Assembly (NCBI RefSeq): GCF_024199925.1
Contig: NZ_JANADR010000001.1
Span: forward strand, 3,782,001-3,846,000
Source of the DNA: Bradyrhizobium sp. CCGUVB1N3
GTDB lineage: Bacteria > Pseudomonadota > Alphaproteobacteria > Rhizobiales > Xanthobacteraceae
Reading direction: 5' to 3'
DNA: 64,000 nucleotides
Both the position numbers and the translations under genes were made by a program. Each line of letters starts with the position of its first letter. Positions within the stretch are counted from its first letter, which is position 1. This document shows, in pieces, positions 34,193 through 43,809 of this stretch. The notes beneath the pieces are model-generated. The model had not been told where the DNA came from. It saw only the letters and a program-made list of their open reading frames with translations, and did not search any database.

Positions 34193-34268
34193 GGGCCTGT
34201 AGCTCAATGGTTAGAGCCGGCCGCTCATAACGGTCTGGTTGCAGGTTCGAGTCCTGCCGGGCCCACCA
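34193..34268 (+). tRNA. tRNA-Ile (anticodon CAT, lysidine-type)
   Basis: This 76-nt gene encodes CCA. Acceptor stem GGGCCTG pairs with CGGGCCC (one G-T pair), the discriminator is A, the D-arm contains AGCTCAATGGTTAGAGC and the T-arm is GCAGG TTCGAGT CCTGC. The anticodon loop CTCATAA gives CAT at 34226-34228. The anticodon-stem and D-arm layout matches the minor tRNA-Ile2, whose C34 is converted to lysidine by TilS so that it reads AUA; elongator tRNA-Met is the alternative. Its last 47 bp recur exactly at 42356-42402, marking it as an integration site. Confidence 0.92.
34222..34268 (+). repeat. left attachment-site repeat (47 bp) within the tRNA gene
   Basis: This is the 3' part of the tRNA from the anticodon stem to CCA, identical over 47 bp to 42356-42402, in direct orientation. 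Together the copies bracket 8.1 kb of accessory DNA. Integration into the anticodon-loop-to-CCA half of a tRNA is classical for tyrosine recombinases. Confidence 0.9.
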
Positions 34269-34518
34269 GCCTTCGCTCGCTTCGCGAGCTTCGGCTCGGC
34301 AAGCCAGCGCCACAAGCGACCAGCGAAGGGTGTCACGCCGAAGCGCGCAGGGCGAAGATGGACTGGCGCAAGATCAGAGGCACCGCACCAGCAATGCCCC
34401 ACTTCAATACTCATCCAGTAGTCTGCAGACTACCGCTCCACAGCTGGTCCGAATACCGTGTCTGTCACTCGATCGTAGATCCGGCTGCTTGCGCATACGA
34501 GAACGACATCAATGGGCA

Positions 34519-34540
34519 TGCCGGCCGCCTGAGGCCGGCA
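34519..34540 (-). terminator. hairpin downstream of the peptide gene
   Basis: TGCCGGCC and GGCCGGCA form an 8-bp perfect stem with a 6-nt loop, about 32 bp beyond the stop codon of the minus-strand peptide gene. There is no clear T-run, so it is a weak terminator candidate or a transcript-stabilising hairpin. The rest of 34269-34572 contains nothing I can name. Confidence 0.4.
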
Positions 34541-34572
34541 CTGAGCTTCGTATTTCCAGGATCAGATGGAGA

Positions 34573-34761
34573 TTAACCGGCGATGCCGGTGTTGACGTAC
34601 GTGGTAATGACCATCGGGTAAGCGCCGCCGCCTGTGACGTCGAGCTGATCGTCCGGCAGCGCATCAGTCATGGAAGCGACCGGCGCCTTTGCCTGCGCGG
34701 GTTCGCTGGGTTGGATAGTCTCGGAACGCGCTCCATTCGTCTCAGACGTATTTTCGGCCAT
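34573..34761 (-). CDS. double-glycine leader peptide, putative precursor/cargo of the NHLP exporter
   Basis: This encodes 62 residues. Start ATG 34761 has a textbook AAGGAG 6 bp upstream; an in-frame ATG at 34779 would sit before that site. Residues 1-45 form an acidic/polar, Cys-free leader ending in LPDDQLDVTGG, which fits the double-glycine consensus (acidic residues, hydrophobic at -7 and -4, GG at -2/-1) cut by C39 peptidases. Cleavage would release GAYPMVITTYVNTGIAG or the form lacking the first Gly: short, hydrophobic, with Tyr and Thr but no Cys. It is transcribed away from the exporter operon that starts 312 bp away. No homologue is recalled; its role as cargo is inference from leader and location. 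Confidence 0.7.
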   Translation of the reverse strand: MAENTSETNGARSETIQPSEPAQAKAPVASMTDALPDDQLDVTGGGAYPMVITTYVNTGIAG

Positions 34762-35072
34762 TCGCAGCTCCTTTTGCATCCGATCTCGTTGCCCGCGACG
34801 GGAGTCTATGCCGCCGCATTTCGATGTGTCTGGGCCGGCAAGGCAAGGTTCAACATCCAGCCCGGGACTCGAGCGTCCTTGCTGGTAATTCAGCCCGCAT
34901 GCCCTTCACATTCCAGTGAGGAATTTATACCTGCAGTCCTCCCAATTCAAGTAAAGGTTGCAGCACGCCGGGTCCGGGTGCCGCAAGTGCAGATAGTGAC
35001 TTGAAAGCGTTGGTCTTTTGAGGCCAAATCCGATGGGGCGGGGGTCGGGGTCCCGCCGTTGGTGGGGGCTGC
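34762..35072. promoter_or_regulatory. divergent intergenic region between peptide gene and exporter operon
   Basis: These 311 bp separate the peptide ATG from the start of the exporter operon and must contain both promoters. The middle (about 34870-34990) is clearly more AT-rich than its surroundings, as expected of promoters, with segments such as GAGGAATTTATACC. I could not assign convincing -35/-10 pairs or a regulator site. Confidence 0.4.
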
Positions 35073-36341
35073 ATGAGGGGCGGGATCAATCGGATGTTTC
35101 GGGAGGCCGCGATCGAGCGGTTGTCCCATCCCGATCAACTCGATCATGTCGTTGGCATTACGCGGCCATACGACTGGGTCGCTGCCCTGGCGCTCGCTGC
35201 CGGAATCGTGGTGCTGCTGGCCTGGGGAGTGCTGGGCCGCATTCCCACCCGGGTTTCGGGCGAAGGCATCCTGCTCAGCAGCGGCGGCCGACTGGTCGAT
35301 GCCGTTTCGGCCGTCAGAGGGCGACTCGCATCTATCGATGTGCGGATCGGAGACGAGGTCCGCAGTGACCAGGAAATCGCGCGTGTCGTGCAGCCGGACG
35401 TCGAGCTGCGACTGCAGCAGGCACGAGATGTGCTTAAGGAGCGCGAGCGCGAACATTCCGATTTGATCGCGGCGATCTCGCGCGAGATCGAAGCCAAGCT
35501 CGGCAATTTCGCAGCGCAGGAGTCGGGCCTGCGCGAAGTCGCCGCCTTTGCCGAGCGGCGCGCCGCCTATCTGGTCGATGAGGTCGCCAAGCTCGAGCCC
35601 GCTGCCGCCGGCGGCTATGTGACCAGGAAATACCTCGAGGACCGTCGCGTCGAGCTCAATGCGGCGCGCGAACGGATCACCGATTCCAAAAACGAGATTC
35701 TCAAATTGAATGCGCAGCGGCTCGAGCTGCAGAGCCAGCGCGAGCGAGACCGATTGCAATCGGAATTCAAGGTGAATGATGCGAGACGCACGGTCGAGCA
35801 GCTTGCGGGTGAGCTCGAACGCGGATCGCGCATCCTCAGCCCGGCCGATGGCCGGATCGTCGAGGTGAAGGTTTCCAATGCGGTGGTACTGGCCGTGGGC
35901 ACGCCGGTCGTCCAGATCGAAACCGCGAGCCCGACATTGGAGGCGACGATCTACATGCCGCCCGACCTCGGCAAGTCGATCAAGCCGGGAATGGAGGTCC
36001 GGGTCGAGCCGAACCCGGTCAAGCGCGAGGAGTACGGCGCGATCATCGGAACGGTCGCCGCGGTGTCCGACTTCCCGGTGACCCCCGAAGGAATGGCTGC
36101 CGAACTGCATAACGACACGCTGGTGAAACGCTTTTCGGAGAAGGGCGCACCCTACGCCATGCGCGTGGCGCTGGAGCGCGACGGCTTGACATCAAGCGGC
36201 TATCGATGGACGTCGGGCAAGGGTCCGGCGCTCGTGCTGTCCAGCGGCACGCTGGCTCGTGCCGAAGTGACCACGCGCGAGCAAGCGCCGATCAATCTCC
36301 TGGTCCCGACGGTCAGGCGGTTGACCGGGATCGGCGGCTAG
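35073..36341 (+). CDS. NHLP-type bacteriocin/peptide system secretion protein (HlyD-like adaptor)
   Basis: This 422-residue membrane-fusion protein starts with the family-typical MFREAAIERLSHPDQLDHVV (ATG 35094 is an alternative start). One membrane helix lies at about 37-56 (WVAALALAAGIVVLLAWGVL), then a first half of the biotinyl/lipoyl-like domain, a long coiled-coil hairpin (about 115-250, rich in Arg/Glu/Leu), the second lipoyl half (SPADGRIVEVKVSNAVVLAVG) and a beta-barrel. It should bridge the inner-membrane ABC exporters to the periplasm. It is the first gene of a four-gene unit with gaps of 8, -4 and 2 bp. Confidence 0.88.
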   Translation: MRGGINRMFREAAIERLSHPDQLDHVVGITRPYDWVAALALAAGIVVLLAWGVLGRIPTRVSGEGILLSSGGRLVDAVSAVRGRLASIDVRIGDEVRSDQEIARVVQPDVELRLQQARDVLKEREREHSDLIAAISREIEAKLGNFAAQESGLREVAAFAERRAAYLVDEVAKLEPAAAGGYVTRKYLEDRRVELNAARERITDSKNEILKLNAQRLELQSQRERDRLQSEFKVNDARRTVEQLAGELERGSRILSPADGRIVEVKVSNAVVLAVGTPVVQIETASPTLEATIYMPPDLGKSIKPGMEVRVEPNPVKREEYGAIIGTVAAVSDFPVTPEGMAAELHNDTLVKRFSEKGAPYAMRVALERDGLTSSGYRWTSGKGPALVLSSGTLARAEVTTREQAPINLLVPTVRRLTGIGG

Positions 36342-36349
36342 GATTGCGC

Positions 36350-38590
36350 ATGAGCGCATCATCCGCACCACCGCGCCGAGCTGGAGGAAGCCCGTTGCTC
36401 CGCTTGCGTGATCTTCTCCAGGCAATGGCCTTTCGTGCGCGCCGACGATCGATCACGCCGACCGTTCTACAGATGGAAGCACTGGAATGCGGAGCGGCAT
36501 CGCTGGCGATGGTGCTTGCGCATTACGGGCGATGGGTACCGCTGGAGACACTGCGGGTCGCGTGCGGTGTATCCCGTGACGGCAGCAAGGCCAGCAACCT
36601 TCTGAAAGCCGCGCGGAGTTTTGGATTGGAAGCGAAAGGTTTTCGCAAGGAGCCGGAAGCGCTGAACGACCTGCCGATGCCGGCAATTCTCTTCTGGAAC
36701 TTCAATCATTTCGTGGTGCTGGAGCGAATCGACGCAGATTGCGCCGAAATCAACGACCCTGCAGTCGGACGTTGCAAGGTCGAGCGCGCGGAGTTCAATC
36801 TTGCCTTCACCGGCGTCGTGCTGGCGATGGAGCCGGGCTCGGACTTCAAGACCGGTGGCGCGAAGCCGAATTTCTCCGCGATGCTATGGCGGTTGCTCCA
36901 GGGATCCCAGCGTGCCGTGATGCTGCTGATCGTCCTGAGCATGGCTTTGGCGATCCCGACGATCCTTGTGCCTACCTTCGTCAAGATATTCATCGATCAT
37001 GTTCTGATCATGCACGTGGAAGGGTGGTTCAGGCCGCTCCTGATCGGTCTCGCACTGACGGCCCTCGGGCGCGCCCTGATCACGGCTTTCCAGCAGTCGC
37101 TGCTGCTGAGGCTCCAGACCAAGCTGACCGTGACCATGGTCGGAAAGCTGCTGTGGCATCTCATGGCAGTGCCCATGGACTTCTTCACCCAGCGTCATGC
37201 CGGCGAGATTGCCAGCCGCGTCAGCGCCAGCGAGGAGATCGCGGAATTGGTATCGAGCGGGCTTGCGACCAGCGCGCTCAATTTGGTTTCGATGATCTTC
37301 ATCGCAGCGGCCATGGCGCTGTACGACCCCCTGCTGGCCGCGATCAGCATTGCGGTTGCGCTGGTGAATGTGCTGTTGCTTGCGTTCATCGCTCGTGAGC
37401 GTGAAGGGCTCAATCGCAAGCTTGCGATAGACAAGGCGAAGTTGACCGCGAACACGATCGAGATCGTCCGGTCTATCGAAACGATCAAGGCTGGCGGGCT
37501 CGAGAACGACGCGTTCGCCCGCTGGAGCGGCTTCCAAGCCAAGGTTCTGAATGCGGAACGAGATCTTGGACTGTATTCCACCATTCTCGAGATCTGTCCC
37601 GTAGTTCTGACCGGCTTGTCCTGTGCCATCGTGCTCGGGCTCGGCAGCCTTCGCATCATGGAGGGCGCCTTGACGATCGGGGGCCTGGTCGCGTTGCAGG
37701 CCTTGCTGCTGAGCCTGGTCGAGCCGGTCAATGCGTTGGTGCAGCAGACCTCCGCACTCCCTGCAATCAAGGCCAACTTGCTCCGGGTCGAAGACGTCTT
37801 CAATTATGCGAATGATGCGGCGCGGCCAACCATCGCGACGGAGCGTAAGCCGCCGGAAATGCCTGCCAAGCTCTCCGGGCACATCAGGTTGGTCGATGTG
37901 TCGTTTGGTTATTCCGCCCTTGAGCCACCGCTCATCGCGGGCCTGTCGCTCGAGATCGAACCCGGCCGCCGGATTGCGTTTGTCGGCGCGTCGGGCAGCG
38001 GCAAATCCACGATTGGTCGCCTGATGAGCGGGCTTTATCGTCCTTGGTCGGGCGAGATCCTCATTGACGGTTGGTCGATCGATCACATCCCCCGGCAGGT
38101 GTTTTCAGGCTCGGTTGCGTATGTCGATCAGGACATCCTGCTATTCGAGGGAACGGCCCGCAGCAATGTGACGCTCTGGGACGACACCATTGCGCAGGCT
38201 GGCCTGTCGCGCGCTGTCAGGGACGCGTCCATTCACGAGGATCTCTCGGTCCGCGCCGGCAATTACGACTGTCATGTTGCAGAGGACGGCCGCAATTTCA
38301 GCGGCGGCCAGCGCCAGCGGCTCGAAATCGCGCGGGCGCTCGCCGGAAATCCTTCCATTCTCATTCTTGATGAAGCCACTTCGGCACTCGATCCCGGCGT
38401 CGAGAAGATGATCGACGACAATCTGCTCCGACGGGCGTGCACTTGTATCATCGTTGCGCACCGGCTCAGCACCATCCGCGACTGCGACGAGATCCTGGTC
38501 ATGAGCCAGGGGCGCGTGGTGCAGCGGGGCACTCATCGGGATCTGCTCGCCGAAGGTGGCGAATATCTTCGCCTGCTGACCGCCGAATGA
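36350..38590 (+). CDS. NHLP-family export ABC transporter with C39 peptidase domain
   Basis: This 746-residue, three-domain protein has a C39 peptidase (about 35-160) with the triad visible as C47 (in MEALECGAAS, with oxyanion Gln at Q41), H120 (FNHFVVLE) and D136 (INDPAVG). A six-helix ABC membrane domain follows (about 185-480), then an ATPase domain with Walker A GASGSGKST, signature FSGGQRQRLEIARAL and Walker B ILILDEATSALD. It should cut double-glycine leaders and export the core peptide. All catalytic residues are intact. Start ATG 36350 lies 8 bp after the adaptor gene; the stop overlaps the next start as ATGA. Confidence 0.93.
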   Translation: MSASSAPPRRAGGSPLLRLRDLLQAMAFRARRRSITPTVLQMEALECGAASLAMVLAHYGRWVPLETLRVACGVSRDGSKASNLLKAARSFGLEAKGFRKEPEALNDLPMPAILFWNFNHFVVLERIDADCAEINDPAVGRCKVERAEFNLAFTGVVLAMEPGSDFKTGGAKPNFSAMLWRLLQGSQRAVMLLIVLSMALAIPTILVPTFVKIFIDHVLIMHVEGWFRPLLIGLALTALGRALITAFQQSLLLRLQTKLTVTMVGKLLWHLMAVPMDFFTQRHAGEIASRVSASEEIAELVSSGLATSALNLVSMIFIAAAMALYDPLLAAISIAVALVNVLLLAFIAREREGLNRKLAIDKAKLTANTIEIVRSIETIKAGGLENDAFARWSGFQAKVLNAERDLGLYSTILEICPVVLTGLSCAIVLGLGSLRIMEGALTIGGLVALQALLLSLVEPVNALVQQTSALPAIKANLLRVEDVFNYANDAARPTIATERKPPEMPAKLSGHIRLVDVSFGYSALEPPLIAGLSLEIEPGRRIAFVGASGSGKSTIGRLMSGLYRPWSGEILIDGWSIDHIPRQVFSGSVAYVDQDILLFEGTARSNVTLWDDTIAQAGLSRAVRDASIHEDLSVRAGNYDCHVAEDGRNFSGGQRQRLEIARALAGNPSILILDEATSALDPGVEKMIDDNLLRRACTCIIVAHRLSTIRDCDEILVMSQGRVVQRGTHRDLLAEGGEYLRLLTAE

Positions 38591-41493
38591 CCCGCGCCTT
38601 CCCACCATCGAATCTGGAGACACCGTGGACCGGAGCTGGGCAGGACCGGTTCGCGCTTGAGAGCCATCGGCCGTTGACGATTGGTCAGACTGATCGGACC
38701 TATCTGGTCGCTCGCGGCCATGTCGACCTGTTTGCCGTCATGCCCCCGGGCGATGACTCGCCGCCGCGCCGCTGGCATTTGTTTCGCGTCGCAAGTGGGG
38801 GATTGATCATTGGCCTGCCTGCATCGGCTCGTGGCGGGCGCGGCCTCGAAGTGATTGCGGTCGGTGGCCTCGATGCGGAGGTGATCTCTTGTTCTCGCCG
38901 CGAGGTGACCGACCGAGCGATGCTCGAAAAATGGTCCACGCTGCTGCTGGCGACGGTCGCGACGCTTCCGGGCGATATCTCTGCCTCTCACATCGATCTC
39001 GATGTCGAAGGCGAACTGGCACCCGGCGAGCTGCTGCGCATGTCGGGCGGGCAGGTCAGTTGGCTCAGCGTCGAGGAGGGGGCAATCGGGATCGTCGGCG
39101 TGGATCAGGCGATCACCGCGATCGATCCGCCCTGCCCGCTGTCACCGGGTACGTGCTTGGTGGCTGAGCGTCAAACGAAACTGCGCGTCAGGGACGGCGC
39201 AATGCTCACCGTCGCCGAGATCCACGCTGGCCTTGACGTCTTGCACACCTTGGTCGTGAACGCGCTCGCTGACAAATTCGACATGGAATGGACGGCCGAC
39301 GTGGCGCGCCTGCAACGGCGCGCCACGCAGGAGGACTCGCGGGCTGAAGCCACGATTGGCCGCCTCGCGGGGATCATCGATCCGGGGGCTCTCGCGCCGG
39401 AGGACCTCGCCGAGGGGACCGACCGGGTATTGTTGGCCTGCCGGGCCGTGGCGGAAGCGATGGGAGTAGAGCTTGCACCGGCCGGCAAGCGCCTGCCTGA
39501 TACCGACGATCTCACTGCGGTGCTCAAACTCGCGGAGGCATCGGGGCTTCGCAGCCGTCGCCTGCTGCTTCGAGCCGGCTGGTGGGCCAACAGCGCAAGC
39601 CCGTTTCTCGTGTTTCTCGGCCAGGAGCGCCGCGCGGCGGCGATCCTTCCCGGTCCCCGCGGCGGACATCTCCTGCTCGATCCCGCGACCGGGACGCGCA
39701 AGCCACTGACGCCAGATATCATTGCCGAGCTCGCGCCGGAGGCCGTGATGTTCTACCATTCACTGCCGGCGCGCTCCCTGGCCTTTCGCGATCTTGCGTC
39801 CTTCGTTGCGCCGATGCTTCGCGTCGATCTGTCGCGAATTATCGTCGCGTCACTCGGCCTTGGCGTGCTCGCGATGGCGACGCCGCTGGTGACCAAGGTC
39901 CTGATCGATTCGGTGCTGCCGCGCGCGGAGGCCGACCAATTGCTGATCTGTACGGCGGCTCTCGTCGTGGTGACGCTGATGGCGGGGGGCGTCCAGTTCA
40001 TGCAGGGCGTCGCAGTGCTGCGGCTCGAGAGCAGGTTAGACTGGATGGTGCAGGCCGCCGTCGCCGATCGGCTGCTGCGCATGCCGATCGAGTTCTTCCG
40101 GAGCTACTCGGCTGGCGACCTTGCAGATCGTGCGCTGGGCATCGAAGCGATCAGGGTGATGATAACCACCCGGGCGATACGCGGAATGTTGGCGCTTGCC
40201 TCGTTCGTGTTCGCCTTCGCGGTGATGCTCTATCTCGACGCCCCACTGGGCCTATTCGCAGCCGTGCTTGCCCTCATTCGCTTCGTGATCGTCGGCGGCC
40301 TCAGCTTCGCCCGGGTGAAGCACGAGAGAGCGAACTTCGGCCTCAGAGGCTGGCTTCAGGGCGCAATCGTGCAGTTCGTGACGGGCATCGGTAAGCTGCG
40401 GGCCGCCAATGCAACGATCAATGCCCTCAATGTCTGGGTCGAGCGCTTCAGTCGCCAAAAGCGGCACTTCATCGCCTCCCAGCATGCGGCCAACGCGATG
40501 AAGAGCTTCGAAGCGGGCTTTCCCGCGATCGCGACGCTCCTGATCTTCGCGGGCTCCGAAGGGCTGGCGGCGACCAGCCCGATACATGATCTCGGCAGTT
40601 TCCTGGCGTTCTATGCCGCATTCGGGATTGCGTTGGGTGCCGCCGGGGAATGGGCGCAGGCTGCGGCCCAACTCGTTACTGTCATTCCCCGCATCGAGCG
40701 GCTGGGTCCGATTATTGCGACACCGATCGAAACCCCCGACGATGCGAAAGCGGTGGGCGAGATCGAAGGCACCATCGAATTCGCCGAAGTGTCGTTTCGC
40801 TACGGCACAGCCGGGCCGGCCATCGTGGATGGCGTCAGCCTGAGCGTCGCGCGTGGCGAATATCTTGCCATCGTGGGCCCCTCGGGCAGCGGCAAGTCGA
40901 CGCTGTTCCGTCTTCTGCTCGGGTTCGAGAAGCCGCAGTCGGGCGTGATCTTCGTGGATGGTAAATCGCTCGAGACCATCGACCTCAGCTCCCTGCGGCG
41001 CCAAGTGGGCGTCGTGCTGCAAAATTCCAAGCTTTCTTCGGGCAATCTGTATGAGAACATCTGCGGTGGTGTCCATCTGCCGATCGACCGGGTTTGGGAT
41101 ATCGCGGGGGCCGCGGGGCTCGATCGCGACATCGAGGCGATGCCGATGGGAATGCACACTTTCGTCGCCGAAGGTATCAATACCTTGTCCGGCGGTCAGC
41201 GTCAGCGGCTGATGATCGCGCGGGCACTCGCACACAATCCGCGCCTGCTATTGATGGATGAGGCCACCAGTGCGCTCGACAACCGCAGTCAGGCCATCGT
41301 TACCGCCTCCATCAGGCGCCTCAACGTGACCAGGATCGTCATCGCGCATCGGCTCAGCACGGTGCAGTCTGCGGACCGGATCATCGTGCTCGACAAGGGA
41401 CGGATCGTGCAGTCGGGCCGCTTCGATGAGCTCATCGCAGCCCCTGGCTTGTTTGCCGAATTCGCCCGCCGCCAGCTGCTGCAGGAGAACTAA
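38587..41493 (+). CDS. NHLP-family export ABC transporter, permease/ATPase without peptidase
   Basis: This 968-residue protein has a large N-terminal region (about 1-400) without a C39 protease. It includes a cupin/CNB-like beta-rich part and a helical segment. An ABC membrane domain follows (about 410-700; LRVDLSRIIVASLGLGVLAM onward), then an ATPase with Walker A GPSGSGKST, signature LSGGQRQRLMIARAL and Walker B LLLMDEATSALD. In NHLP systems this second exporter pairs with the peptidase-type one, perhaps as a heterodimer. It is translationally coupled to the preceding gene (ATGA). Typical length is 900-1000. Substrate cannot be read from sequence. Confidence 0.92.
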   Translation: MTRAFPPSNLETPWTGAGQDRFALESHRPLTIGQTDRTYLVARGHVDLFAVMPPGDDSPPRRWHLFRVASGGLIIGLPASARGGRGLEVIAVGGLDAEVISCSRREVTDRAMLEKWSTLLLATVATLPGDISASHIDLDVEGELAPGELLRMSGGQVSWLSVEEGAIGIVGVDQAITAIDPPCPLSPGTCLVAERQTKLRVRDGAMLTVAEIHAGLDVLHTLVVNALADKFDMEWTADVARLQRRATQEDSRAEATIGRLAGIIDPGALAPEDLAEGTDRVLLACRAVAEAMGVELAPAGKRLPDTDDLTAVLKLAEASGLRSRRLLLRAGWWANSASPFLVFLGQERRAAAILPGPRGGHLLLDPATGTRKPLTPDIIAELAPEAVMFYHSLPARSLAFRDLASFVAPMLRVDLSRIIVASLGLGVLAMATPLVTKVLIDSVLPRAEADQLLICTAALVVVTLMAGGVQFMQGVAVLRLESRLDWMVQAAVADRLLRMPIEFFRSYSAGDLADRALGIEAIRVMITTRAIRGMLALASFVFAFAVMLYLDAPLGLFAAVLALIRFVIVGGLSFARVKHERANFGLRGWLQGAIVQFVTGIGKLRAANATINALNVWVERFSRQKRHFIASQHAANAMKSFEAGFPAIATLLIFAGSEGLAATSPIHDLGSFLAFYAAFGIALGAAGEWAQAAAQLVTVIPRIERLGPIIATPIETPDDAKAVGEIEGTIEFAEVSFRYGTAGPAIVDGVSLSVARGEYLAIVGPSGSGKSTLFRLLLGFEKPQSGVIFVDGKSLETIDLSSLRRQVGVVLQNSKLSSGNLYENICGGVHLPIDRVWDIAGAAGLDRDIEAMPMGMHTFVAEGINTLSGGQRQRLMIARALAHNPRLLLMDEATSALDNRSQAIVTASIRRLNVTRIVIAHRLSTVQSADRIIVLDKGRIVQSGRFDELIAAPGLFAEFARRQLLQEN

Positions 41494-41495
41494 CC

Positions 41496-42056
41496 ATGCG
41501 CAAGGTCCTTTTCATGTTCGGGGTGCTGAACGATTCCGACATCGAATGGATGGTCCGGTCCGGTCAGCGGCGCACGATCCGTGGCGGAGAGACCGTCATT
41601 CAGGAGGGCGTGCCGATCGAATCCATCATCCTGGTGCTGCAGGGGCGCATGGGGGTCGAGATCGACCGAGCCGGCGAGATCGCCCAGATCGAGGAGGGGG
41701 ATGTCATCGGCGAGATGTCAATGGTCGATTCCGCGCCACCTTCCGCGACTGTTGTGGCGAAGATCGACGCGGTCGCACTGTTCCTCGATAAGACGATCTT
41801 GCAGCAGAAGTTGGCTGGCGATGCTCATTTTGCAAGCCGCTTCTATCGGGCACTTGCGATCCTGCTCTCGGATCGGCTGCGTGCAACCGAACGCCGGATG
41901 GCCTATGGCCAGGGCGCGGATCTTGCGGACGAGAACGCCCGCCTCAAAGACGAGCTGGACCCTGACGTGTTGGACCACCTTGCGATTGCGGGCGAACGAT
42001 TCGACCGCCTGCGTAAGCAGGTCGAGGCCGCGGAGATAAGGAAGCATCACCGCTAA
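41496..42056 (+). CDS. cyclic nucleotide-binding-fold protein, no DNA-binding domain
   Basis: This 186-residue protein has a CRP-type beta-roll (about 5-125) followed by a helical tail (about 130-186) rich in Glu, Arg and Asp, without an HTH. The phosphate-binding cassette reads GEMSMVDSAPPSATVVA: the GE pair is kept, but the arginine that pairs with the cyclic phosphate is replaced by Pro/Ser, so cAMP binding is doubtful. It begins 2 bp after the exporter stop and closes the operon. Such proteins accompany NHLP exporters repeatedly; the role is unknown, possibly a scaffold or sensor for the exporter. Confidence 0.82.
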   Translation: MRKVLFMFGVLNDSDIEWMVRSGQRRTIRGGETVIQEGVPIESIILVLQGRMGVEIDRAGEIAQIEEGDVIGEMSMVDSAPPSATVVAKIDAVALFLDKTILQQKLAGDAHFASRFYRALAILLSDRLRATERRMAYGQGADLADENARLKDELDPDVLDHLAIAGERFDRLRKQVEAAEIRKHHR

Positions 42057-42355
42057 GAGCTGTAGACGCAAAGATCGCGACCTCGGCAAGTGCCGCTTTG
42101 TCGGAAATTCCGCGTCATCGGATTCCTGATGATTTACACGATGTAGTCTGTTTCGGGTCGCGAGCGGAAAGTCTCAACTTGAGTGGATGATTCCCGCTTC
42201 TCATCTGACAGCGGATGCGCAGCTCGGGCTCGCGAACCGGCGGAAGCTTGGACCGCACCAGTTTCACACCAGAAACAACCTGAATGAACCACAACAAACG
42301 CGAACGAGACCAAACAAAAACAAAGCGAAATCAACGAAATTGACCGTTATCCCGT
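42057..42355. other. non-coding stretch between exporter operon and right repeat
   Basis: This stretch of about 300 bp becomes distinctly A-rich towards 42280-42345 (runs such as CAAACAAAAACAAAGCG). No gene, tRNA or clear hairpin is seen. It belongs to the island and ends where the 47-bp tRNA repeat begins. Confidence 0.5.
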
Positions 42356-42402
42356 CGCTCATAACGGTCTGGTTGCAGGTTCGAGTCCTGCCGGGCCCAC
42401 CA
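42356..42402 (+). repeat. right attachment-site repeat, exact copy of the tRNA-Ile 3' half
   Basis: These 47 bp are identical to 34222-34268, including the T-arm, acceptor 3' strand and CCA. Upstream the match stops in the anticodon stem, so this is not a functional tRNA. It marks the right end of the exporter segment; the integrase gene begins 184 bp further on. Confidence 0.92.
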
Positions 42403-42531
42403 CATTGTTAGTCCGTCAGCATTCGCAACGATGCGTCCTCATCCGCTGAAGCGACATTTCCGCTGTTTTTGTAATGACTTTCAACGTGCAAACGTTCGCC
42501 GATGTTCGTAGGGTGTTTGCTAACATCCCGC

Positions 42532-42585
42532 CGTTTTGTTGGCATATTTGTTGGTATCTTATCGAAGCCGAAGCGAGATACCAAC
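42532..42585. promoter_or_regulatory. direct and inverted repeats just before the integrase start
   Basis: Two tandem copies of TTTGTTGG(C/T)AT lie at about 42536-42558. The second begins an inverted repeat, GTTGGTATCT (42550-42559) and AGATACCAAC (42576-42585), whose right arm ends at the integrase ATG. Such repeats near integrase genes usually are recombinase arm-binding or autoregulatory sites; the hairpin would also cover the ribosome binding region. Confidence 0.5.
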
Positions 42586-43809
42586 ATGCCGCTCACGGAT
42601 ACGAAGTGTCGGAATGCCAAGAGGCAAGTCAAGCCACGCAAGCTCTCCGACGGCGGCGGCTTGCACCTCTTAATCAATCCTGACGGAGCTAAATACTGGC
42701 GCTTGGCCTATCGGTGGCATGGCAAGCAACGCACCCTTGCAATCGGCGTTTATCCGGCCATTGGGTTGATGGAGGCGCGCGCTGCGCGGGATGAAGCCAA
42801 ACGTAACCTTGCTGCTGACATCGATCCTTCAGTAGTGAAACGGGAGCGTAAGCGGGCCGCAAAGATTGCAATTGACAATACCTTCGAAGCCGTCGCGCGC
42901 GAGTGGCACGAAAACTGGAAAGGTGCACGTAGCCCCTACTACGCTGCCCAGATCCTCCGACGTCTGGAGGCGAATGCTTTCCCGGCCATCGGTCGCCGTC
43001 CGGTTGCGGCGATTGAGCCGCCGGAACTTCTGGACATGCTGCGCAAGGTCGAGAAGCGCGGGGTGAACGAAACGGCGCGACGGCTAAAGCAACTCGTCGG
43101 ACAAATATTCCGTTTCGCTATCGTGACCGGCCGAGCGAAGCGGGACCCCTCCGTTGATCTCAAGGACGCTTTACGAGCTACGGGAGAACCGCAACGTCAC
43201 AGAGCGATGCCGCTTTCGGAGCTGCCAACCTTCTTGCAGAAGTTGGAATGTTACAGCGGCGAGCAGCAGACCAAACTTGCATTGAAGCTGGTAACCCTGA
43301 CGTTTCTTCGAACGACTGAGCTGCGCGCCGGCAAGTGGGGCGAACTGGAGAACCTGGATGAGAATTCCGCTGTGTGGCGCATTCCGGCCGAACGTATGAA
43401 AATGCGCCTGGAGCATCTGGTGCCTCTGTCACGCCAAGCAGTCGCGGTATTGCGCGAGCTGCGCGCGCTTTGTGGCGGTAGTCCCTACATCTTTCCTTCG
43501 CCCGGAAAAGGCGACTGCATGTCCAGCAACACCATGCTCTATGCCATCTACCGGATGGGATATCACGGTCGCGCCACGACCCACGGTTTCCGCACCGTCG
43601 CTTCCACGATCTTAAACGAAACCAACTTGTTCAACCGAGATTGGATCGAACGCCAGCTTTCGCACGTAGAACGAAACGAAGTGCGACGCGCGTACAACGC
43701 CGCGGAGTGGATGCCTGATCGTCGAAGAATGATGCAGTGGTGGGCAGACCATATTACAGCGTTGGCTCTCGAAGGCGACAAAATCATTCCGTTGTCGCGC
43801 GCGGGCTAA
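42586..43809 (+). CDS. tyrosine-type site-specific integrase (P4-like, N-terminal DUF4102)
   Basis: This 407-residue protein has an N-terminal arm-binding domain (MPLTDTKCRNAKRQVKPRKL, then GGGLHLLINPDGAKYWRLAY), a core-binding domain (about 95-195) and a catalytic domain. The catalytic residues can all be placed: R247 (RTTELRAG), H333 and R336 (THGFRT), H360 (LSHVERN) and the nucleophile Y370 (RRAYNAAEW). It therefore looks active. The start at 42586 is used rather than an upstream frame at 42502. It lies between the tRNA-Ile repeat and a tRNA-Arg 3' fragment, so its target could be either site. Confidence 0.93.
   Translation: MPLTDTKCRNAKRQVKPRKLSDGGGLHLLINPDGAKYWRLAYRWHGKQRTLAIGVYPAIGLMEARAARDEAKRNLAADIDPSVVKRERKRAAKIAIDNTFEAVAREWHENWKGARSPYYAAQILRRLEANAFPAIGRRPVAAIEPPELLDMLRKVEKRGVNETARRLKQLVGQIFRFAIVTGRAKRDPSVDLKDALRATGEPQRHRAMPLSELPTFLQKLECYSGEQQTKLALKLVTLTFLRTTELRAGKWGELENLDENSAVWRIPAERMKMRLEHLVPLSRQAVAVLRELRALCGGSPYIFPSPGKGDCMSSNTMLYAIYRMGYHGRATTHGFRTVASTILNETNLFNRDWIERQLSHVERNEVRRAYNAAEWMPDRRRMMQWWADHITALALEGDKIIPLSRAG

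Follow-up and report, generated by a model that had tools for sequence, protein, structure and literature searches.

The window analysed here, a stretch of 64,000 nt from a Bradyrhizobium genome, contains at positions 34573..34761 a very short open reading frame beside an exporter operon, which raises the question of whether this frame is a gene and, if it is, what its product might do. The initial annotation had described a 62-residue peptide with an AAGGAG site and a double-glycine leader, encoded head-to-head with a C39-peptidase exporter operon. Inspection of the locus confirmed the coordinates and placed the gene on the minus strand, where 62 codons extend from an ATG at 34761 to the stop codon at 34575-34573. 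The AAGGAG ribosome-binding site is present 6 nt ahead of this ATG (34768..34773, minus strand). An alternative ATG at 34779 would give a product of 68 aa, and the AAGGAG would then fall within the gene. The divergent arrangement was found as described: the reading frame of the HlyD-type adaptor begins at 35073 and runs in the opposite direction. A promoter scan of the intergenic region between both genes (34762..35072) gave no sigma-70-like match. Directly past the peptide stop codon, in the gap 34269-34572, lies a G+C-rich 9-bp hairpin without a T run. This gap may contain an additional small gene; comparison with the related genome G248 revealed no meaningful DNA match for a second gene here or in the gap 42057-42350.

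The shortness of the gene, the lack of any Pfam or NCBIfam match at E ≤ 1 and the negative promoter scan would all fit a spurious ORF. A direct search with the window peptide retrieved four other proteins of 85, 85, 68 and 51% identity, and clear matches were found in three other genomes (G248, G110 and G211) among 265 genomes of the genus. The initial annotation had held that its claim would be refuted if genomes carrying this operon had no conserved homologue; homologues do exist near the operon. In G248, a 65%-identical peptide is encoded head-to-head with the same type of exporter, whose HlyD is 92% identical, and the reading frame, start, ribosome-binding site (AGGAG) and stop are conserved. 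Changes in the leader between the window genome (G000) and G248 are mostly synonymous (pS 0.56, pN 0.15), indicating purifying selection on the leader at the peptide level. The core by itself shows no purifying selection over its 16 codons, pN (0.33) exceeding pS (0.27) in this single pair. Homologues, selection on the leader and conservation in G248 led us to reject a chance ORF, which is hardly credible. Judged by sequence, homologues, alignment and selection, the short gene looks real, its probable product being a precursor for a small secreted peptide.

The predicted leader comprises 46 residues (34624..34761, minus strand) and ends in LPDDQLDVTGGG, with Leu at -12 and -7 and glycines at -2 and -1. 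As hallmarks of a C39-type leader we took GG (or GA/GS) at the end and hydrophobic residues at -4, -7 and -12. In an alignment of 30 family members, Leu -7 and both glycines are invariant and Leu -12 occurs in at least 90%. The window peptide departs from this rule at -4, where it has Thr, and Val is found at -5 instead. Although the double-glycine type of the leader proposed initially holds, the translated stretch LPDDQLDVTGGGAYPMVITTYVNTGIAG contains three glycines and would yield a core of either 16 (AYPM...) or 17 residues (GAYPM...). From the alignment with relatives, cleavage behind the third Gly is favoured; Leu then falls at -7 and -12, the positions recognised in C39 substrate leaders according to the available text of PMC6363468. 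The resulting core AYPMVITTYVNTGIAG (16 aa; 34576..34623, minus strand) has a monoisotopic mass of 1669.84 if unmodified (m/z 835.93, 2+) and, as had been noted, is free of Cys; for the 17-residue alternative the m/z would be 864.44.

The adjoining operon, located entirely on the plus strand, encodes a complete NHLM exporter, as all three characteristic families scored above their cut-offs. The HlyD-type adaptor (35073..36341) matched TIGR03794 with 296.5 bits (cut-off 156.2) and is followed by a C39 peptidase/permease/ATPase, here called ABC1 (36206..38590; TIGR03796, 998.8 bits, cut-off 853.3). The match to TIGR03796 starts at residue 84, and the true start of ABC1 is uncertain. Its C39 peptidase domain (36440..36850) aligned with 6MPZ (LahT150) at E 4.5e-48, including the Gln, Cys, His and Asp active-site motifs. 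A second ABC permease/ATPase, ABC2, whose true start is also uncertain, extends from 38437 to 41493 (TIGR03797, 770.5 bits, cut-off 709.4). The last gene (41496..42056) encodes a cyclic-nucleotide-binding, CRP-like protein with 148.2 bits to TIGR03896, under the cut-off of 161.05.

Exporter loci of other Bradyrhizobium genomes contain more small genes whose products have a VSGG end followed by a short core. A family profile built from the 30 aligned members and searched at E ≤ 0.01 gave matches in 20 of the 265 genomes, 13 of them clear (best E 5.1e-11 or lower) and seven at about 1e-3. The seven genomes with weak matches all possess ABC1 and encode other small double-glycine peptides with different, unrelated-looking cores (stretches L125, L126, L127, L128, L129, L130, L131 and L141), three of which lie close together in L127. 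In a protein database, 448 sequences matched the profile at E ≤ 0.01; a precomputed Pfam domain was recorded for none of the 120 matches listed. Together with five further proteins, these 120 made up the 125 proteins compared by reading. Of 341 genomes drawn from the taxonomic family (47 genera), only three had a match at E ≤ 1e-5, and all were Bradyrhizobium. The initial annotation had placed the core in no known family, in agreement with the empty Pfam and NCBIfam searches, and no paper describing the peptide family by its title or the start of its abstract was found in the open-licence PMC literature.

Within 19 stretches from the 13 clear genomes, which were covered in place of the entire genomes, the profile matched 47 times, including 12 matches in G099; some copies look truncated or broken. 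Core statistics were obtained from 40 of these matches, after exclusion of three without a recognised GG and four with a short leader or long core. The cores are 8-19 aa long and usually start with x-[W/Y]-P: at position 2, W occurs in 28 cores, V in seven and Y in three, and position 3 is P in 37. They end in GG in 17 and in TI in 10 cases, and only two contain Cys. Leaders and cores differ clearly in their conservation. In the 36 members of the W-P group, median pairwise identity is 58% in the leader compared to 25% in the core, and pN/pS is 0.44 in the leader compared to 0.80 in the core (268 pairs with a leader identity above 0.6). The N-terminus of the W-P leaders is conserved as well (MTNxQDTNSK type). 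From these comparisons, the window peptide is one member of an unnamed, multi-copy Bradyrhizobium family that has no entry in Pfam or NCBIfam and combines a conserved leader with a hypervariable core.

Identical cores were found on different leaders. The peptide of G110 and the window peptide share 81% identity in the core with a pS of 0.04, whereas their leaders are 54% identical with a pS of 0.45. At the DNA level, positions 34281-34722 of the window are 87% identical to G110 over 454 columns, covering the 3' part of the peptide gene and about 290 bp beyond it. Part of this shared stretch also matches G211. The G110 peptide with its hybrid leader and window-like core (L103:7321-7767) is located near a W-P type exporter. 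Since the two cores are nearly alike while the leaders have diverged, and since the similarity continues about 290 bp past the gene, we read the shared stretch as a recombined module and the exchange of cores as the result of recombination.

Co-occurrence of peptide and exporter in other genomes, a check suggested by the initial annotation, was pronounced. ABC1 (TIGR03796, E ≤ 1e-200) was found at 73 places in 69 of the 265 genomes; of the 13 genomes with a clear peptide, 12 possess it, compared with 57 of the 252 others (Fisher p 4.7e-7). G018 is the one genome with a clear peptide and no ABC1 at this threshold. In 11 genomes a peptide is encoded within about 10 kb of the exporter, while that of G146 lies on a different contig and one extra copy in G211 is 1.2 Mb away. 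Each of the 11 linked loci (the window and ten relatives) encodes HlyD, the CRP-like protein and both ABC proteins. In a phylogeny of 38 ABC1 sequences, representing 34 of the 73 places and four from other genera, all 11 peptide-linked exporters fell into a single clade (100/100), within which the window and G248 pair together, and the 23 other Bradyrhizobium exporters examined lay outside. The distribution requires one change, and none of 500 label shuffles gave a value as low; the rows are related and their labels are not independent events, so that one ancestral pairing could account for all 11. A motif scan of the stretches around the 23 outside-clade exporters did not detect the family, and two of three other matches resemble longer double-glycine peptides. 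These sequence relationships show a peptide family co-inherited with one clade of NHLM-type exporters. The single clade of linked exporters is the main evidence for regarding the peptide as cargo, and the original interpretation as a coding double-glycine peptide paired with its exporter is supported by sequence.

The locus also shows signs of mobility. A tRNA-Met gene (34193..34268, plus strand) forms the left edge of an insertion: in ten relatives the orthologous left flank ends at the tRNA 3' end or up to 90 nt beyond, and the DNA that follows differs. The right edge is marked by a direct repeat of 52 nt (96%; 42351..42402, plus strand) that corresponds to the tRNA-Met 3' end. The break in the flank and the repeated 3' end delimit an 8.1-kb cassette, made up of peptide and exporter, in an integration hotspot. 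A tyrosine integrase gene (42502..43809, plus strand) begins 100 nt past the repeat and is possibly part of the adjacent element. Partial copies of the tRNA-Met end also occur in relatives. A similar tRNA fragment is located about 200 bp from the peptide of G216; at the edges of the other nine linked loci tRNA-Met was not found. In a search for the cassette on plasmids, none of 165 matching records covered 80% of it.

Considered as a whole, the locus is well explained by an exported short-peptide precursor that is the cargo of this exporter clade, and we regard this explanation as likely; its precursor-and-cargo part is held with high confidence. The divergently encoded C39 transporter would bind the leader and cut the precursor after the last Gly, and the core of about 16 residues would leave the cell through HlyD and a putative outer-membrane channel encoded elsewhere. 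The core is probably exported without further modification, because only the exporter-operon genes and the peptides are common to all 11 loci. More tentatively, it may act outside the cell on other strains. As up to 12 genes occur per genome and cores are found on different leaders, antagonism or recognition fits better than one fixed pheromone. We favour a role in strain-level competition or recognition, in which antagonism has roughly even chances and signalling is possible with a smaller probability, the two not being separable.

The neighbourhood of the loci bears on three other explanations, one of which is a peptide signal sensed through a two-component system. Eight of nine W-P exporter loci, G216 being the exception, have genes for a hybrid histidine kinase and a TauE/SafE membrane protein nearby, and seven of these eight also one for a LuxR-type regulator (in G071 the stretch ends inside the kinase gene). 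All three genes are likewise found close to the G018 and G146 peptides. Among 117 sampled genomes, a TauE with 87% identity or more occurred in 5/5 W-P genomes but in 2/112 others; being rare elsewhere, though not exclusive to the W-P genomes, it does not fit the idea, which we dismissed, that TauE and kinase are ordinary core-genome neighbours. In G194, a 1438-aa autotransporter is encoded between the kinase and TauE genes (L145:10863-15176). A general signalling role is opposed by the finding that none of these three genes was detected in the stretches around the peptides of the window, G248 and G216, and by the occurrence of the kinase/TauE/LuxR trio without peptides in G244 and G224. Moreover, many variants per locus are unlike systems of one receptor and one pheromone. 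A signal of this kind is conceivable but on the unlikely side.

A classical unmodified bacteriocin, of the class II microcin type and accompanied by a dedicated immunity protein, would share the double-glycine leader, the C39/HlyD exporter, the diversifying cores and the location in an integration hotspot. It would, however, call for an immunity gene, and no candidate common to the 11 loci was found among ORFs of at least 90 aa, where only exporter-operon genes are shared, or among 327 small ORFs of 25-89 aa that lie outside known genes and are preceded by a ribosome-binding site. Beyond the family itself, the most widespread group of these small ORFs occurs in seven of 11 genomes, and the six of its members listed run antisense across peptide genes. 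In G099, the array of ten genes leaves less than 80 bp in five of its nine gaps; the four others (111-218 bp) could fit a very small gene. Cores of 8-19 aa are also short for class II microcins. The immunity gene may be distant or not common to the loci, but we consider a microcin of this type unlikely. Rather improbable is a modified RiPP, either with D-residues introduced by a PoyD-type epimerase or with a cyclophane like XyeA. PoyD (TIGR04517) is encoded in three of the 11 loci (L106:10183-11929, L142:14662-16411 and L144:5379-7156) and once in the window genome, and 11 of the 30 members match XyeA (TIGR04495) weakly (best E 0.059; the window peptide does not match). In all three loci, however, PoyD is directly followed by another small gene, Nif11-like by eye, and a role of PoyD as maturase of the window peptide finds no support. 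The homologue in the window genome (L199:948-2964, C1:8645420) is 4.8 Mb away and has its own small upstream ORF, rich in Thr, Val and Ala, that resembles an epimerase precursor. The best XyeB match there, 0.4 Mb away, reaches 171 bits compared with a cut-off of 450, and the search was also positive in six of 14 control genomes; the weak XyeA matches probably reflect the shared VSGG leader end. No maturase is among the genes common to the 11 loci, though one may be encoded elsewhere in the genome.

Returning to exported, unmodified cargo, a broader and tentative proposal is a combinatorial library of peptides confined to the genus. A single exporter clade would secrete sets of unmodified peptides of 8-19 residues, usually with an x-[W/Y]-P start and a GG or TI end; their cores would be exchanged between leaders, the peptides would spread partly by insertion at tRNA genes, and strains would use them for recognition or competition without dedicated immunity proteins. 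Many records label NHLM-type exporters 'NHLP bacteriocin', frequently naming no cargo. For one exporter clade, a likely cargo can now be named; its core mass, its leader rule and the many variants found in nature make export, cleavage and function of the peptide directly testable in Bradyrhizobium, a soil and root bacterium whose genus includes legume symbionts.

Several known peptide classes were compared with the family. The annotation had excluded lanthipeptides and disulfide bacteriocins, which agrees with the Cys-free window core and with the genes shared between loci, which include no lanthionine synthetase. A comparison with NHLP leaders, which it had proposed, assigned the window peptide to neither an NHLP nor a Nif11 family: NHLP (TIGR03793) was matched by one of the 30 members at E 0.23, and Nif11 (TIGR03798) is absent from the four families that the 30 members match at E ≤ 1. 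With leader profiles unmatched or weak and XyeB far under its cut-off, membership in NHLP, Nif11 and XyeA was rejected.

In its general design the family follows other C39/double-glycine peptide systems. Among described systems, a pneumococcal locus, rtg, resembles the Bradyrhizobium family in that a set of double-glycine peptides is preferred by one C39 transporter; there the leader N-terminus contributes to specificity, as far as the available text of PMC7018657 describes it; the W-P leader N-terminus is conserved too. In contrast, rtg is Gram-positive and pheromone-controlled, and no sequence similarity is claimed. Of solved structures, LahT150 (6MPZ) is nearest to the C39 domain in sequence and, according to the accessible part of PMC6363468, shares the reading of Leu -7 and Leu -12, but stems from a Lachnospiraceae transporter. 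Cyanobacterial double-glycine bacteriocin clusters likewise combine a C39 ABC protein, a second ABC protein and HlyD with diverse short precursors nearby, whereas their leaders are of the NHLP and N11P types; where the consulted text of PMC3140520 names Bradyrhizobium, it appears as an outgroup only. A parallel in gene content is found in the NHLM/NHLP systems, whose exporter families have been tied to NHLP and Nif11 precursors; the number of NHLPs in a genome there ranges from one to 12 (Haft et al. 2010, PMC2887384, as far as its text was available). TIGR03794, TIGR03796 and TIGR03797, a leader with a variable core and several precursors per genome are common to both. The Bradyrhizobium family differs from the systems described in that part of PMC2887384 by a leader that is neither NHLP nor Nif11, by cores of 8-19 aa with Cys in 2/40, and by the genes common to the loci, which comprise neither a heterocyclase nor a lanthionine synthetase. 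The peptide-linked exporter clade appears to carry cargo other than NHLP/Nif11 precursors.
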